A model generated the notes under the pieces. The model did not search any database and was not told the origin of the DNA. It was given only the letters and a program-made list of their open reading frames with translations. Both the position numbers and the translations under genes were made by a program. This document shows, in pieces, positions 15,489 to 30,708 of a DNA stretch of 64,000 nt (within the stretch, counting starts at the first letter, position 1; each line of letters opens with the position of its first letter). Origin of the DNA: Deltaproteobacteria bacterium (GTDB lineage: Bacteria; Myxococcota_A; UBA9160; PR03); the NCBI GenBank assembly GCA_035063765.1, contig JAPSFT010000002.1:62001-126000 (forward strand), in the 5' to 3' direction.

Positions 15489-15532
15489 GTTTCCCTTGCC
15501 GATCGTGGGGTTTGCGAAGCCGGTTTCGCCGC

Positions 15533-25200: not shown

Positions 25201-26848
25201 GACGGGGCGGGACGTCGTGGCGTACCAGACGACGCGGCGGCCGGTGCTGCTCGCGCAGGCCGGTGGCGACCTCGGCGGCATCGTGGTCGATGCGTTTCGC
25301 CTGATCGTCAGCAGCGTAGCCCGGTCGCTGTCGTTCGACCCGGCCGTGGCAGTCGTCGATCTGAGCAACCGCCCTCCCTTCAACGAACAGCAGCCCAGCG
25401 CTCCGTTCTATGCCATCAACACCCACTCGCGGCCACTTCTCGTGACGCACGGGTGGGATCCACTCGCGATCCTGCGCGACGCCTCGCTCATCATGGACCC
25501 CATGGGCCCTGACGGGGCGCGCTATGGGCAGATCGTGAGCGACCTTGTGGAGAGCACGAACGCGATCTATCGCCCGATCTGGCTCACCTACAACTCGCGG
25601 CTCGGCATCGACAAGAACGGACAACGGCTCGTCCGCGCCCTGCGCGAGCAGTTTCCGGAGGGCACGCCCGAAGAGCCGCTCGTCACCGATGCATTCGCAC
25701 CGCCGGGTGCATTCACCAACCCCAAGGCCTTCCGGACCTTCGATTCCTACGGCTTCAGCATGGGCGGCCTCATGAACCGGAGCTTCCAGCTGGGTTCCTA
25801 CTATTCCGATCCACCCATCAGTATTCCCGGCGACAGCGGCCGCCGAGGCCGCATCCAGCGGATGATCGCGATGGGGTCACCCCATCACGGCGCACTCCAG
25901 GTGCTGCGGCTCGCGGTCTCGGTGGCGTCGTCGGTTGCCTACAGGCTTCCGATCGAGACGCTCCTGAACATCTGGTCGCCTGGTACGGCCGATCTGCTGG
26001 ACTACGTCGACGACGATGCCGTGCCGTGCGCGCTCTCTGGCAACCCGACGCTTTGCGCGCTGAACAACGACCGCCGCAGCAGCCCACACGTGGTGGCGTC
26101 ACTCATCGCCGGTACGAAGTCCACCAGACGCCTCGCAGACGGCATTGATCTCGATCTCGGGTATCTCGTCGATCCCTTCCAGAAGAGCGACAGTGTGGTG
26201 CCGGTCTCCAGTGCCCATGGTGAGAGCACCTTCGATCGACGAGTGGTGCCCGCCCTGACCCGTCGGCGCACCAGCGAGCAAGTGTTCGACCACTTCCGGG
26301 CCGGCACCGATGCGACCGCGCAGGGGGAGGGCAACCAGCGGATCACGGCCTTCGTGGGGGAGGACATCCTGCCTGTGCTGCAGGACCACTGGGTGGTTCG
26401 GGAAACCGGCCTGGTCGAGAACCAGCCTCTGGCGCCTGGGGTCCGGATTGTCGACTGCCCCACGCTGACTCAGCGCGGGTTGATCGAGGCCGACTTCTTC
26501 TTCGACTACAAGGCGGCTAACGGCGGCTTGACTGGCATCGCGTTGGTTTCTTACGCCGAGGACCAGAATGGTTCCTGGCAGATCATCTCCGGAGCGGACC
26601 CATCTAGTCTTGAACTCTATTCGACCACGCTCCTCCCTGTCGACGGGAACTCCCGAGGCAAGGATCGTGAAGAGGGAAGACTTAGGTTCGCGGAGCGACC
26701 CGCGGCGGGGATCGACGCACGCCGGGTTCTCACCCTTGTTGCCACGACCGGTACACTCAGCTCGACCGAGGGACGAGCGCAAGCGGCTCCCACCGCCGCG
26801 CAGGTCGAACAGCTTGATGAACTTCAGCGGATCCATACGTGTCCATAG
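19232..26848 (+). CDS. Giant multi-domain surface protein: Ig-like, carboxypeptidase-regulatory repeats, lipase-like domain
   Basis: This 2538-codon frame continues that of 18866-19207; a repaired protein would be about 2660 residues. Residues 85-1110 hold repeated Ig-like domains with the pattern PPVVTITSPPDGTLTAAATV. Residues 1120-1840 contain about eight carboxypeptidase-regulatory-like repeats (GVVTDGTSGSALAGVAVTV, then DLDGAYVVEAIPAGPFTV). Around 1848 a ZU5-like segment (GGSIETPDGRMRLDIPPGSL) follows. The C-terminus is an alpha/beta-hydrolase: LLVTHGWDP, nucleophile elbow YGFSMGGLMN, MGSPHHG, and candidate acid and histidine in SDSVVPVSSAHG and FDHFRAG. A secreted adhesive lipase or acyltransferase is likely; the substrate is unknown. 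The 3' end overlaps the kelch gene. Confidence 0.75.
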   Translation: MGGGNVMSPVKTWDWGARFGQAGSGGGAIEAASFRLTAPGLTAASLADATTQGWRLGVRIQGTSGPEGSAKIGIAASQPPAGQAPTVAIAAPTDGALLAASEVPVSGSFTGTAPVAVAVNGIAATLSGPSFGVTLALLDGAHTLTASATNASGSASDAVAITVDTTPPVVTITSPPDGTLTAAATVTVTGTVVDAGLITSFTLNGVAAPLANGAFAAEVPLEMGGNPISAVATDAAGHSGSDATSVERGAPPTISITAPPSGFTTAEAEIVVTGQVSGSEPLTVVVGSVPASVAAGTFSATVPLSVGTNTIAATASNTFGTASASVAGTRTEAAPPLSITIDSPPSGALVSSPLVAVAGWVSDGAAAVAVGGATAIVTGNRYVAPGVALVEGENTLVAVATRGADSAQAETVVTYNAPPRVVITTPADGSVVRFPQTDVEGFVDDPAALVDVNGRVAAVGHAGRFVARDVPLDLGSNLLTARAIDVYGAGGEDTARVTREDGAAGVVRLVFVREERYPFLGDGEPIPLIAETVEQFGETLGFLGFPPEEFTPAIDRIQHTYGDGHVFAFTEDPGSLTVFQNDEQVDDQILLEPIELLPDDFVFQFGQLDPTLIPDILPVGFDARYYAELDFSFEPETMPTPGEVVVRVETDTGAVGALPIRIETGLPAVEIAKPVSGSVVRANAVTISGTASDDVHLFGRARYFLFNDEIGVIGSGSVPVVNGRFVLSDLAVDEGRQCVTVTALDAAGNSEGDLTCFTVDTSGRLVSLASLRDGQTVVGSTLAVSLDFAVPLTLVSVNGVADGRAFAAGLAEQAISVSLAPGPNVITLVVDDGNGPSSFEFALFRLGSPEAIRITSPGDGAVRNTPSVPVTVQAPLGTSHVQVNGVAATPQPDGVSFVASVPLRSGPNRIEAIAAPYGQTAAITVEGDFQPPSLHFVLPPDGARTVADSSDLVGFVDEPVSVELEGPGGRRRGTAVFDGSLSDVLLRSFVYRFDLPSFPLAEGVNPLTLRLRDRAGNETTETFTLERALSAVSLVTPVDGASLPESRTTIHLEALTDVTIDAWYAGGRRLAAFDGVGFGPGSATFTDVPLVPGSNEMRIAYHGPDGAAQVLLFELHSTASAGAVVTGVVEDLRTGAPVAGALVRVSVSGITLIVATDAEGRYRAEVEAGDIEITVEREGFRAATATIAAQGVTSLDFALVPWRTSSEDLPGTGPGIATSRVEGVVTDGTSGSALAGVAVTVSSGTTEFVTATDLDGAYVVEAIPAGPFTVAFERAGYLPQLFEVPFDAPVDWTLDAALEVGAGGGLASSSLSGRVFDEDTGAGLGGAAITVDSGGTILTTTSEPSGKYLVEAIPPGPFSVTVALDAFVTRSFEVPFEEAAPIEVDVPLVASGVSGGAAASVVRGTIRDEATGAALAGALVTVTATGATLAATTDATGAFAVRGIPIGAFTITVGRDGYVPRVFDAPYEIAVVLPLDATLSPLGTTVTVVGTVRSGLTGQLEPGVTVRLLGTSRTATSDGAGRFTLMDVPLGTAQSLVLAKPTFLEEFVTFTATQGAAGHPVQLDLTYPVVQSSERSLTIGTEAEGTVVDALTGRPLAGAELQAGSATTVADADGRFILEGLPPETVVRVTATASDHEAQGFDALVVANGDDPLDFRLAPTLLGEVAGTVTDAATGEPVAYAEVGIEGSTFLSAVTDGDGTYRLLAVPAGAHTIVATSPEHFPQASTGFSVSAGATATFDAVLPPRPKVGGLAGHVLDAATSAPIAGAVLTLADGRSETSTSDGSYAFAGVASGLARLTIEAAGYPAASRVAPVDADVDAATPTVTTFDFRLDASTAFDPSEASGLIEAAEGGSIETPDGRMRLDIPPGSLTGDGVITIRQSPAPVAGPGEALVSDPALGLPPVTALADEIEILIGAPPGGGDKPLLAGPVYVVARYFEDFAAGASAAEASAFPYLHTGSDWTALRMVPYLHAVDRINNVIVTALIFEETETGRDVVAYQTTRRPVLLAQAGGDLGGIVVDAFRLIVSSVARSLSFDPAVAVVDLSNRPPFNEQQPSAPFYAINTHSRPLLVTHGWDPLAILRDASLIMDPMGPDGARYGQIVSDLVESTNAIYRPIWLTYNSRLGIDKNGQRLVRALREQFPEGTPEEPLVTDAFAPPGAFTNPKAFRTFDSYGFSMGGLMNRSFQLGSYYSDPPISIPGDSGRRGRIQRMIAMGSPHHGALQVLRLAVSVASSVAYRLPIETLLNIWSPGTADLLDYVDDDAVPCALSGNPTLCALNNDRRSSPHVVASLIAGTKSTRRLADGIDLDLGYLVDPFQKSDSVVPVSSAHGESTFDRRVVPALTRRRTSEQVFDHFRAGTDATAQGEGNQRITAFVGEDILPVLQDHWVVRETGLVENQPLAPGVRIVDCPTLTQRGLIEADFFFDYKAANGGLTGIALVSYAEDQNGSWQIISGADPSSLELYSTTLLPVDGNSRGKDREEGRLRFAERPAAGIDARRVLTLVATTGTLSSTEGRAQAAPTAAQVEQLDELQRIHTCP
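26510..26599 (+). repeat. 90-bp segment duplicated at 28122-28211 (copy 1)
   Basis: Encodes AANGGLTGIALVSYAEDQNG within the giant protein. The copy downstream of the kelch gene differs at a handful of positions and by one missing base. Confidence 0.8.
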
Positions 26849-28121: not shown

Positions 28122-28211
28122 AAGGCGGGCAACGGCGGTTGACTGGCATCGCGTTGGTGTCATACGCCGAGGACCAGAATGGTTTCTGGCCGATCATCTC
28201 CGGAGCGGATC
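28122..28211 (+). repeat. 90-bp segment duplicated from 26510-26599 (copy 2)
   Basis: Lies just after the kelch stop codon and encodes TGIALVSYAEDQNG in a frame broken by one missing base. It runs into the remnant of a toxin gene. Confidence 0.8.
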
Positions 28212-28253
28212 AAGGGGCCTGGATCCGCACCGGATCCCCATTTCGCCGCGTCC

Positions 28254-28570
28254 GCCAGCCCGTCGATCCGATCCTCCCTCACGACGTAGAAGACGCCGCA
28301 GGGGAAGCGCTGGAGCGAGGCTCGCCGCACCCGCCTCTGCACTTCGGGGTGCGCTTCGGGATGCCGCGCCATGCGCGCGAAGCACGCCCTCGCGGAGCGC
28401 AAGAACGCCTCCCCGAGGCCAGGTCGCTGCGCCTCGTACCAGCCGAAGGCCTCGTCGAGATCGACCTCGGCGCGCGGTCGGACCGCCAGCGGGAACGGCT
28501 CGCGCTCACACCCGGCAGCGATGCGGTCCCGGAGTTCCTCCACGAGCTCCAGCCGCTCGCTGGGGGCGCG
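28254..28570 (-). pseudogene. Decayed toxin-antitoxin module (antitoxin-toxin fusion remnant)
   Basis: Leftward translation gives SERLELVEELRDRIAAGCER, matching the antitoxin at 17859-18092. It continues in the same frame as AVRPRAEVDLDEAFGWYEAQ and FPCGVFYVVREDRIDGLA, matching the toxin at 17572-17862. An internal deletion has joined the two genes, removing the antitoxin C-terminus and the toxin start. The toxin's last 15 residues are replaced by unrelated sequence near 28254. Not expected to be functional. Confidence 0.8.
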
Positions 28571-28726: not shown

Positions 28727-29707
28727 ATGCGGCCTCGTGTGTCGTTCTTGCGCTCGCTCTTCGTGCTGGCTGGCGTGGCGCTCCTCGCGACTCCGGCCTC
28801 GGCGGTGACGATCGACTGGGTGACGGTGGGGGATCCGGGCAATGCCGCGGACACCGCCACGAACTGTTACGCAGCCAATTGCGGCTCGGTCGCGTACTCG
28901 TACCAGATTTCGAAGTACGAGGTCACCAATGCGCAGTATGCGGAGTTCCTGAACGCGAAGGCCGCGTCGGATCCGCTGGCGCTCTACAGCACCGCCATGG
29001 CGGGGACCTATGGCGGCATCACCCGGAGCGGCTCCCCGGGCAGCTACACGTACGCGGTGAAGCCCGGCTTCGCGGACAAGCCGGTGAACTGGGTGTCGTT
29101 CTACGACAGCCTGCGCTTCACGAACTGGCTGAACAACGGCCAGGGGAGCGCGGACACGGAGACCGGCGCGTACACGCTCCTCGGCGGGACGCCGGTGCCG
29201 AGCAATGGCCTCACCGTGACGCGCAACCTGGGCGCGAACATCTTCCTGCCGAGCGAGAACGAGTGGTACAAGGCAGCGTACTACGACGGGCTCTCGGCGA
29301 CGTACTTCGACTACCCGGCCGGGACGAACACGCAGACGGTGTGCGCGGCGCCCGGGGCGACGCCGAACACCGCGAACTGTTACTACGCCATTGCCAACGT
29401 GACGGACGTGGGCGCCTACACGGGCTCGGCGAGCCCGTACGGGACGTTCGACCAGGGTGGGAACGTCTGGGAGTGGAACGAGCAGATCGTGAGCGGCTCG
29501 GACCGGGGCATCCGGGGCGGGGGCTGGAGCGTCGACGCCGGCAACCTCGCCGCGTCGTCCCCGAACCACGCCAGCCCGCCCCTCGGGAGCGGCAGCCTCG
29601 GGTTTCGTGTCGCGAGTCTCGTTCCCGAGCCCGGGACGAGCCTGCTCGTGATGATCGGACTCGCGGGACTGGCCGCGCGGCAGGAGCGCCGCAAGCGGAC
29701 CCTCTGA
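28727..29707 (+). CDS. FGE-sulfatase-fold (SUMF1-like) protein with PEP-CTERM signal; candidate DGR target
   Basis: The 326-residue exported protein has a signal peptide (FLRSLFVLAGVALLATPASA), then an FGE-sulfatase domain: YQISKYEVTNAQYAEFLNA, DKPVNWVSFYDSLRFTNWLN, LPSENEWYKAAYYDG and GTFDQGGNVWEWNEQ. It ends in VPEPGTSLLVMIGLAGLAAR plus a basic tail, an exosortase sorting signal. The fold is a C-type-lectin relative that many diversity-generating retroelements diversify; residues 260-297 (RGIRGGGW to GFRVAS) look like such a variable region. A binding role outside the cell is more likely than formylglycine synthesis. It is followed by a hairpin and an Avd-like fragment. Confidence 0.85.
   Translation: MRPRVSFLRSLFVLAGVALLATPASAVTIDWVTVGDPGNAADTATNCYAANCGSVAYSYQISKYEVTNAQYAEFLNAKAASDPLALYSTAMAGTYGGITRSGSPGSYTYAVKPGFADKPVNWVSFYDSLRFTNWLNNGQGSADTETGAYTLLGGTPVPSNGLTVTRNLGANIFLPSENEWYKAAYYDGLSATYFDYPAGTNTQTVCAAPGATPNTANCYYAIANVTDVGAYTGSASPYGTFDQGGNVWEWNEQIVSGSDRGIRGGGWSVDAGNLAASSPNHASPPLGSGSLGFRVASLVPEPGTSLLVMIGLAGLAARQERRKRTL
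29504..29617 (+). other. Putative DGR variable region (VR)
   Basis: Encodes RGIRGGGW, a stretch of small polar residues, then LGFRVAS. Between Trp267 and GFRVAS many codons end in C (AGC GTC GAC, AAC, TCC, AAC CAC GCC AGC, AGC GGC AGC). That is what adenine-directed mutagenesis of AAC codons in a template would give, although the high GC content also favours C-ending codons. No template repeat is seen in the window. Confidence 0.55.
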
Positions 29708-29732
29708 TCTCTGGGCCTTGGACCCTTGTCCG

Positions 29733-29760
29733 GGGCCGCGCGGCCATAGCCGCGCGGCCC
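29733..29760 (+). other. Strong 11-bp hairpin after the FGE-fold gene
   Basis: GGGCCGCGCGG-type arms (GGCCGCGCGG/CCGCGCGGCC plus one more G-C pair) flank a 6-base loop CCATAG, 25 bp after the stop. It could be a terminator, or the hairpin that some DGRs need downstream of the variable region. Confidence 0.5.
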
Positions 29761-29782
29761 GCGCCTCGGGGGGAGCGCGCAC

Positions 29783-29878
29783 ATGGCTCGCGCCAGCGAT
29801 CCGCCGGTGCTGCTCGTCAAGTGGTACGACCTCGCGAAGTGGCTGCTCGAGCGGGTCGAGCAGTTCCCGATCTGCTGA
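29783..29878 (+). pseudogene. Truncated Avd-like (DGR accessory) gene, N-terminal 31 codons
   Basis: ATG 29783, preceded by GGGGGGAG, reads MARASDPPVLLVKWYDLAKW then LLERVEQFPIC and a TGA. This resembles the first helix of Avd-like four-helix-bundle proteins that accompany diversity-generating retroelements, which normally run to about 110-120 residues. The rest is absent; the hicA remnant follows 45 bp later. Its position right after an FGE-fold variable-protein gene is the usual DGR order. Identification rests on recall of the family, not on an alignment. Confidence 0.6.
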
Positions 29879-29922: not shown

Positions 29923-30170
29923 TCAGCGCTGCGCGAAGAGCTGTTCCGCGATCGCTTCGCGCGTCGTGCCGGCGTGCCGGGCGACCTCGGCGAGGACGGC
30001 GGCCAGGGTGCCCACGCGCAGCGTGTCGTGGTTCGGGATGGTGAGGTGGTGCTCGCCACCCGTGTGCGTGGTGAGGCGGAGGGGACTCCCGTCTGTCGCG
30101 TGACCTCGTAGCCGAGGCGCCGTAGCGAGCGGGCGAGGGCCGGGCCCGAGAGGTCCCGGGGCAGCCTCAT
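29923..30170 (-). pseudogene. hicA: HicA-type toxin, frameshifted
   Basis: Starts at ATG 30170 with MRLPRDLSGPALARSLRRLG YEVTRQTG-like sequence, then loses one base near 30087-30091. In the shifted frame it continues SPLRLTTHTGGEHHLTIPNH and DTLRVGTLAAVLAEVARHAG to a stop at 29923. HicA toxins are small dsRBD-like mRNA interferases whose key His lies in the segment lost by the frameshift. Corrected length would be 82 residues, normal for the family. The ATGA overlap with hicB is kept. Confidence 0.82.
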
Positions 30171-30373
30171 GCCGGGAGCACTTCCTCGCGGACGAAGTGC
30201 AGGCGGATCAGGGCGGGTGCAGTGGCCTCCTCGAAGTGACACCGCACGGCATCGCGAACCCGCTCGTGCAGCGCCTCCAGCGTGTCCGCTTCCGTGAAGA
30301 TGGCGGCGCCGAGCGCCCGCGCGGTGAAGCCGCCCTCGGGCGCCTCCTCGACGAGGAAGAGGATCTCGTTCAT
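30167..30373 (-). CDS. hicB: HicB-like antitoxin
   Basis: The 68-residue protein MNEILFLVEEAPEGGFTARA, with AIFTEADTLEALHERVRDAV and IRLHFVREEVLPA, matches short HicB-type antitoxins with a partial RNase H-like fold and without a long DNA-binding tail. It lies upstream of hicA with a 4-bp overlap. With the toxin frameshifted, the antitoxin would have no active partner here. Confidence 0.8.
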   Translation of the reverse strand: MNEILFLVEEAPEGGFTARALGAAIFTEADTLEALHERVRDAVRCHFEEATAPALIRLHFVREEVLPA

Positions 30374-30473
30374 GGTGGCCGGGAAGATAGCTCGATCCCG
30401 CGCACGCTCGCGCCTTCCTTCGGCAGTCTGCGGACGGCGGCTCCAGGCGCCGGGTCGCGCAGCCGGAGCGGCT

Positions 30474-30492
30474 GGATCCACACGGGATCCAC
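30474..30492 (+). repeat. Tandem GGATCCAC pair, putative right arm-type integrase sites
   Basis: GGATCCAC at 30474-30481 and 30485-30492 is separated by ACG, mirroring the pair at 15533-15551. It ends 44 bp before the right core. Confidence 0.6.
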
Positions 30493-30600: not shown

Positions 30601-30700
30601 GTGGGAGCGGAACGAGCAGATCGTGAGCGGCGGCTCGTGCCGGGGCATCCGGGGCGGGAGCTGGCTCGACTTCGCCGGGGGCAGCGCAGCGCAGACCTCG
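30601..30700 (+). pseudogene. Fragment of a second FGE-fold variable-protein gene
   Basis: Reads WERNEQIVSGGSCRGIRGGS then WLDFAGG, close to WEWNEQIVSGSDRGIRGGGW of the protein at 28727-29707. It starts abruptly 42 bp after the right att core. Similarity fades after about 30680; in the next frame RSADLD appears, reminiscent of other DGR targets. No GFRVAS end or PEP-CTERM tail follows. Confidence 0.75.
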
Positions 30701-30708
30701 ACCACGAG

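Follow-up and report, generated by a model that had tools for sequence, protein, structure and literature searches.

A gene in the window, the whole 64,000-nt stretch of DNA analysed here, encodes an exported FGE-sulfatase-fold protein and is followed by a hairpin and a 31-codon open reading frame (ORF), an arrangement that the initial annotation read as a diversity-generating retroelement (DGR) target with a truncated avd. Is this gene the target of a DGR, and is there an element that could still act on it? We conclude that it is a real but probably orphaned DGR target with an unusual surface-sorting tail (Table 1).

Table 1. Features in and around the target-avd block (window coordinates).
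Feature	Position	Strand	Basis or remark
Direct repeat copy 1, TGGATCCRCACSGGATCC, 18 nt, flanks target-avd block	28220..28237	+	0.04 expected in window
Target gene, exported FGE-sulfatase-fold (C-type-lectin-like) protein with PEP-CTERM tail, 326 aa	28727..29707	+	PF03781, PF07589
DGR-type variable region (VR), 120 nt	29498..29617	+	Position-1/2-biased and A-linked variation; aligns with VR/template pairs of intact DGRs
PEP-CTERM sorting motif, residues 299-322, immediately 3' of VR	29621..29692	+	PF07589
GC-rich hairpin, perfect 12-bp stem GGGCCGCGCGGC, loop CATA, between target and avd relic	29733..29760		Stem search, alignment
5' avd remnant, 31 codons (homology about 29), frame broken and remainder missing thereafter	29783..29878	+	Homology to Avd and sister relics
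Direct repeat copy 2, TGGATCCRCACSGGATCC, 18 nt, flanks target-avd block	30473..30490	+	0.04 expected in window
Decayed second VR-type fragment	30602..30701	+	77 nt 84% identical to target around VR start

A profile search placed the FGE-sulfatase domain PF03781 on residues 53-296 of the target (E 3.5e-23), the N-terminus of the ORF is signal-peptide-like, and a PDB sequence search with the target returned no match. The predicted C-type-lectin/FGE fold carries the VR at the C-terminal end of the domain, as would be expected of a DGR target, and the PEP-CTERM signal proposed for this protein scored above threshold (PF07589, 25.1 bits versus a cut-off of 20.7), giving it the C-terminal motif of a putative exosortase substrate. 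Further PEP-CTERM-like tails were seen in the window genome and in its sister species. Three complete paralogues of the target lie in the same genome, on contigs 37, 42 and 13, the one on contig 37 being 75% identical to it, and homologues were present in 18 of the 41 genomes searched, with the window genome counted. Relatives within the order carry FGE-PEP-CTERM-like targets in tandem, two or three at a time (loci L039 and L024 on G019:C85; L033, L040 and L043 on G039:C782), and a metagenome-assembled genome (MAG) labelled Burkholderiales, G380, encodes a target (L104) 64% identical to that of the window.

The motif RGGSW...GFRVA was rejected as evidence for a DGR by itself, as it is generic to the FGE fold; because FGE-fold proteins outside DGRs carry the same segment, RGGGW...GFRVAS alone is not diagnostic, and the nucleotide pattern decides. 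We compared the RGIRGGGW...LGFRVAS segment, which spans the VR, with the remainder of the gene. Between the window gene and its contig 37 paralogue, the 41 codons of the VR differ at 13, 12 and 2 sites in codon positions 1, 2 and 3, whereas the 225 codons of the body differ at 22, 23 and 50, so that the ratio of position-1/2 to position-3 differences is 25:2 in the VR versus 45:50 in the body (Fisher p=1.5e-5). In terms of substitution rates, the body shows dN 0.10 and dS 0.36, indicating purifying selection, and the VR shows dN 0.44 and dS 0.08. The same positional bias was found between both copies in the sister species (G001) and between species. Against the G001 contig 86 gene, third-position differences number 2 of 40 in the VR versus 84 of 231 in the body (p=3e-5).

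The variation is also linked to adenine. Across five genes, A occupies 1 of 72 invariant VR columns versus 103 of 429 in the body (p=4e-7), and it is among the states in 33 of 40 variable position-1/2 VR columns versus 62 of 128 in the body (p=1e-4); at the variable codon of RG(I/L/V/F)RGG, variation is confined to the A of ATC. As no template is at hand, this A-specificity is read from comparison of one VR with another only, and the position-bias and adenine comparisons are not independent of one another. The paralogues on contigs 42 and 13, which share the fold and have PEP-CTERM-like tails, served as a negative control and exhibited no position bias, with as many or more third-position differences in their C-terminal segments as in their bodies. 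The likeness of VR third positions suggests re-copying from a shared template, since selection on the protein would not yield it, and adenine-free invariant columns together with position bias are the traces expected of template copying in which A is replaced at random. With body and paralogue controls in place, the pattern strongly supports the window gene as a DGR-type target rewritten at A positions. The strain comparison proposed at the outset thus bore out the annotation's central claim, the segment varying between strains at A-linked positions.

Downstream of the target, no stem of at least 12 bp arose when the 167-nt spacer was shuffled 5000 times with its dinucleotide composition kept, and the hairpin is kept in three copies, those of the window, contig 37 (loop GTAA) and the sister species (loop GCAA). 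In the DGR of phage BPP-1, the hairpin is GC-rich with a 4-nt GRNA loop and lies 4-34 nt past the VR (PMC3240598); the window hairpin resembles it in its GC-rich stem, 4-nt loop and position downstream of the VR, but differs in its 12-bp stem, in a loop that does not fit GRNA, and in lying some 115 nt beyond the VR.

Homology identifies the 31-codon ORF (ATG at 29783, TGA at 29876-29878) as the beginning of avd. Residues 1-29 match complete Avd proteins encoded in other genomes of this phylum (best tblastn E 2.3e-6 in a small locus set; 62% identity over 21 residues in the best match), and the Avd family models did not match the 31-residue product alone, which is too short. At the DNA level, the alignment of the remnant with the contig 37 locus runs across the hairpin and takes in both the spacer and the avd relic next to the target there; that relic aligns in turn with the one in G001, whose 68 residues match the NCBIfam model DivGenRetAVD (NF033474; 44.1 bits, E 2.1e-11) and PHROG 3206, 'Avd protein of DGR'. 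The proposal of a truncated avd thus held, by alignment and not by the family-model search of the short ORF. None of these genes encodes a full-length four-helix Avd: about 29 residues remain in the window, and sister copies have 68-78 residues or are frameshifted. The contig 37 copy has a frameshift near codon 39 and loses homology near codon 78, the G001 copy loses homology near codon 78, and sister-species target-avd contigs end abruptly within avd, so that no avd copy seen in the genus is whole, each being interrupted by truncation, a frameshift or the end of a contig. Among 80 genomes of the order, avd was recognisable in the window genus only, in a search with a composite query whose N-terminal two thirds were modelled on the relics; our conclusions on avd rest on natural sequences recovered later.

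Intact DGRs with homologous targets show what such a locus looks like when whole. MAGs labelled Opitutus (L149), Isosphaera (L158) and Prosthecobacter (L172) each carry a target, avd, reverse transcriptase (RT) and template, although the VR frame of L172 is broken in the assembly, and a Verrucomicrobia MAG (L137) carries a target, RT and template. VR-template mismatches fall at template A in 16 of 16 cases for L137, 22 of 24 for L158 and 21 of 22 for L149. These four loci share with the window a homologous target with the VR motif RGLRGGS(W/F)...GFR(V/L), and L149, L158 and L172 also share the presence of avd; unlike the window, all four have an RT and an A-rich template just downstream, the RT of L149, L158 and L172 bearing the motif LPIGNLTSQ. 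PEP-CTERM tails are present on the L137 and L172 targets and a PEP-like tail on that of L158, while L118 and L112 have PEP-CTERM targets with avd, as does L132, whose avd frame is broken by a stop. Both the target-avd order, which the annotation had recognised, and the PEP-CTERM tail thus belong to genuine DGRs with targets of this type. In L149, a PEP-CTERM-like tail at about 10828 is stopped just before the motif (LAPIP*PSTYGAALGVMALGVVMMRRRKARGTL), the DGR being otherwise complete.

DGRs with FGE-sulfatase or C-type-lectin-fold targets have been catalogued previously (DiGReF set, PMC3521204; survey, PMC8144416), and the window gene resembles them in its FGE-fold target, C-terminal VR, adjoining avd, A-linked codon rewriting and multiple paralogous targets. 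It departs from them in that no RT or template was found, avd is a stub, and a PEP-CTERM tail follows the VR. We found no mention of DGRs together with PEP-CTERM or exosortase in the non-subscription literature searched.

We then looked for the missing components and found neither of the two that a complete DGR requires, a DGR-type RT and a template repeat; the annotation had proposed a search of the whole genome for both. No DGR-type RT was detected in the window genome (G000; 96% complete, 57 contigs), in its close relatives G001, G002 and G004, or in the PLA1 genome that holds locus L108. None was seen in 80 genomes of the order either, where RT matches were assessed from their motifs and their weak identity to the RT of a DGR. 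The sole RVT_1 match in the window genome, on contig C22, was rejected as a DGR RT, since a TIGR04416 score of 327.6 bits over a cut-off of 300 and a QGxxxSP motif mark it as a group II intron maturase. The DGR RT of G380 was likewise set aside, as it belongs to that genome's own intact-looking DGR (L214), on a different contig from L104 and with a different FGE target.

No template repeat was found in G000, G001, G002 or G004 with either a VR-core pattern allowing 3 mismatches or an inferred A-rich template query, both of which matched only the VRs and the fragment at 30602. That fragment is not rich in A and takes in target-coding sequence 5' of the VR, and its reading as a decayed template repeat is disfavoured because templates of intact homologues start at the VR, unlike this match; it is more likely the remnant of another target copy. 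The annotation had named two observations that would speak against a DGR, namely the lack of an RT and template repeat and a segment conserved across strains: the first holds for this genome, and the second is contradicted by the A-linked strain variation. An element able to act here now is not supported, given a genome and close relatives in which neither DGR-type RT nor template was found.

The gene is probably a true DGR target, diversified by a DGR whose local element has since decayed. A DGR would once have reverse-transcribed an A-rich template RNA, misincorporating at adenines, and the resulting cDNA would have homed into the 3' VR of the window FGE-fold gene and its sister copies, rewriting, to judge from the pattern, some 15-20 mostly NNC-type codons and leaving other positions as in the template. 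Avd is now cut to 29 codons, and the assembly contains neither a DGR-type RT nor a template repeat; the VR would since be frozen, or rewritten solely by a source elsewhere. The product would be exported, and its PEP-CTERM tail would be expected, from fold and motif, to sort it to the surface, displaying a variable ligand-binding face. Because VR third positions are more alike than gene bodies between species, re-templating appears to have outlasted the divergence of the bodies, which fits either a very recent loss or a source that is present but unassembled; the fresh third positions argue that the loss, if complete, was recent.

The second of these options, a functional DGR (RT, template and full avd) in unassembled or accessory DNA that still diversifies the VR and its sisters in trans, is unlikely. 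VR synonymous sites are near-identical across copies whose bodies stand at dS 0.7, target bodies are under purifying selection, and the near-identical contigs L106 and L108 bear different VRs; the missing RT may moreover be an assembly gap, given the completeness and fragmentation of the genome and sister contigs that stop inside avd. Against it stand the searches above, empty of DGR-type RT and of template, and the damage to every avd copy. It is conceivable, and we put it forward tentatively, that a family of exosortase-sorted, PEP-CTERM surface lectins is diversified in trans by a DGR acting on several scattered genes. Template and RT would then lie on separate, often unassembled DNA, with targets continuing to vary after local avd and RT decay, a scenario that we regard as doubtful.

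Recombination among paralogues of a long-dead DGR might instead have spread the VR differences, shuffling cassettes into a repertoire with no retrohoming involved. Contigs L106 and L108, each from a different MAG, share 99.87% identity over 9.8 kb before diverging within the target: in the VR, 18 of 105 nt differ (9 each at codon positions 1 and 2, and no third positions), and in the remainder of the target 57 of 861 nt differ, with third positions prominent. Because the remainder differs as well, including the 5' half of the gene, some paralogue recombination has occurred there; the upstream sequence resembles the C38 paralogue, and target copies are several per genome. However, each VR bears A-site changes particular to itself and is no mosaic of the others, and the scant divergence of VR third positions between genera points to a recent template in common, making this reading improbable. 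A reading without any DGR, in which diversifying selection acts on the exposed loops of a conventional FGE-fold surface protein and the small ORF alongside is unrelated, would account for the generic RGGSW...GFRVA motif and the lack of RT and template in the genome, but it is hardly credible when selection on protein neither strips A from invariant codons nor spares VR third positions, two FGE-PEP-CTERM paralogues of the same genome lack the pattern, and the adjoining ORF is avd by homology.

A decayed local element at a true target links targeted hypermutation to PEP-CTERM/exosortase surface sorting, with intact examples in Verrucomicrobia and Planctomycetes. Adenine-free invariant columns and spared third positions, with an internal negative control, also offer a sequence-only test for orphaned DGR targets that needs neither template nor RT; such genes will escape any DGR census that takes the RT as its starting point.

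The claim that the block is carried on an island is not established, the flanking 18-nt direct repeat being suggestive only; a weaker copy of this repeat, TGGATCCRCACSGGATCC, lies at 15532. By eye, minus-strand ORFs at 29923-30370 look like a frameshifted HicA with HicB, and one at 28160-28543 like a ParE-like toxin; a toxin-antitoxin reading of these neighbours was rejected for want of Pfam support beyond a sub-threshold DUF1902 match. A 71-nt direct duplication (94% identity; 26528-26598 and 28139-28209) repeats the end of a large adhesin-like ORF just upstream of the target block.
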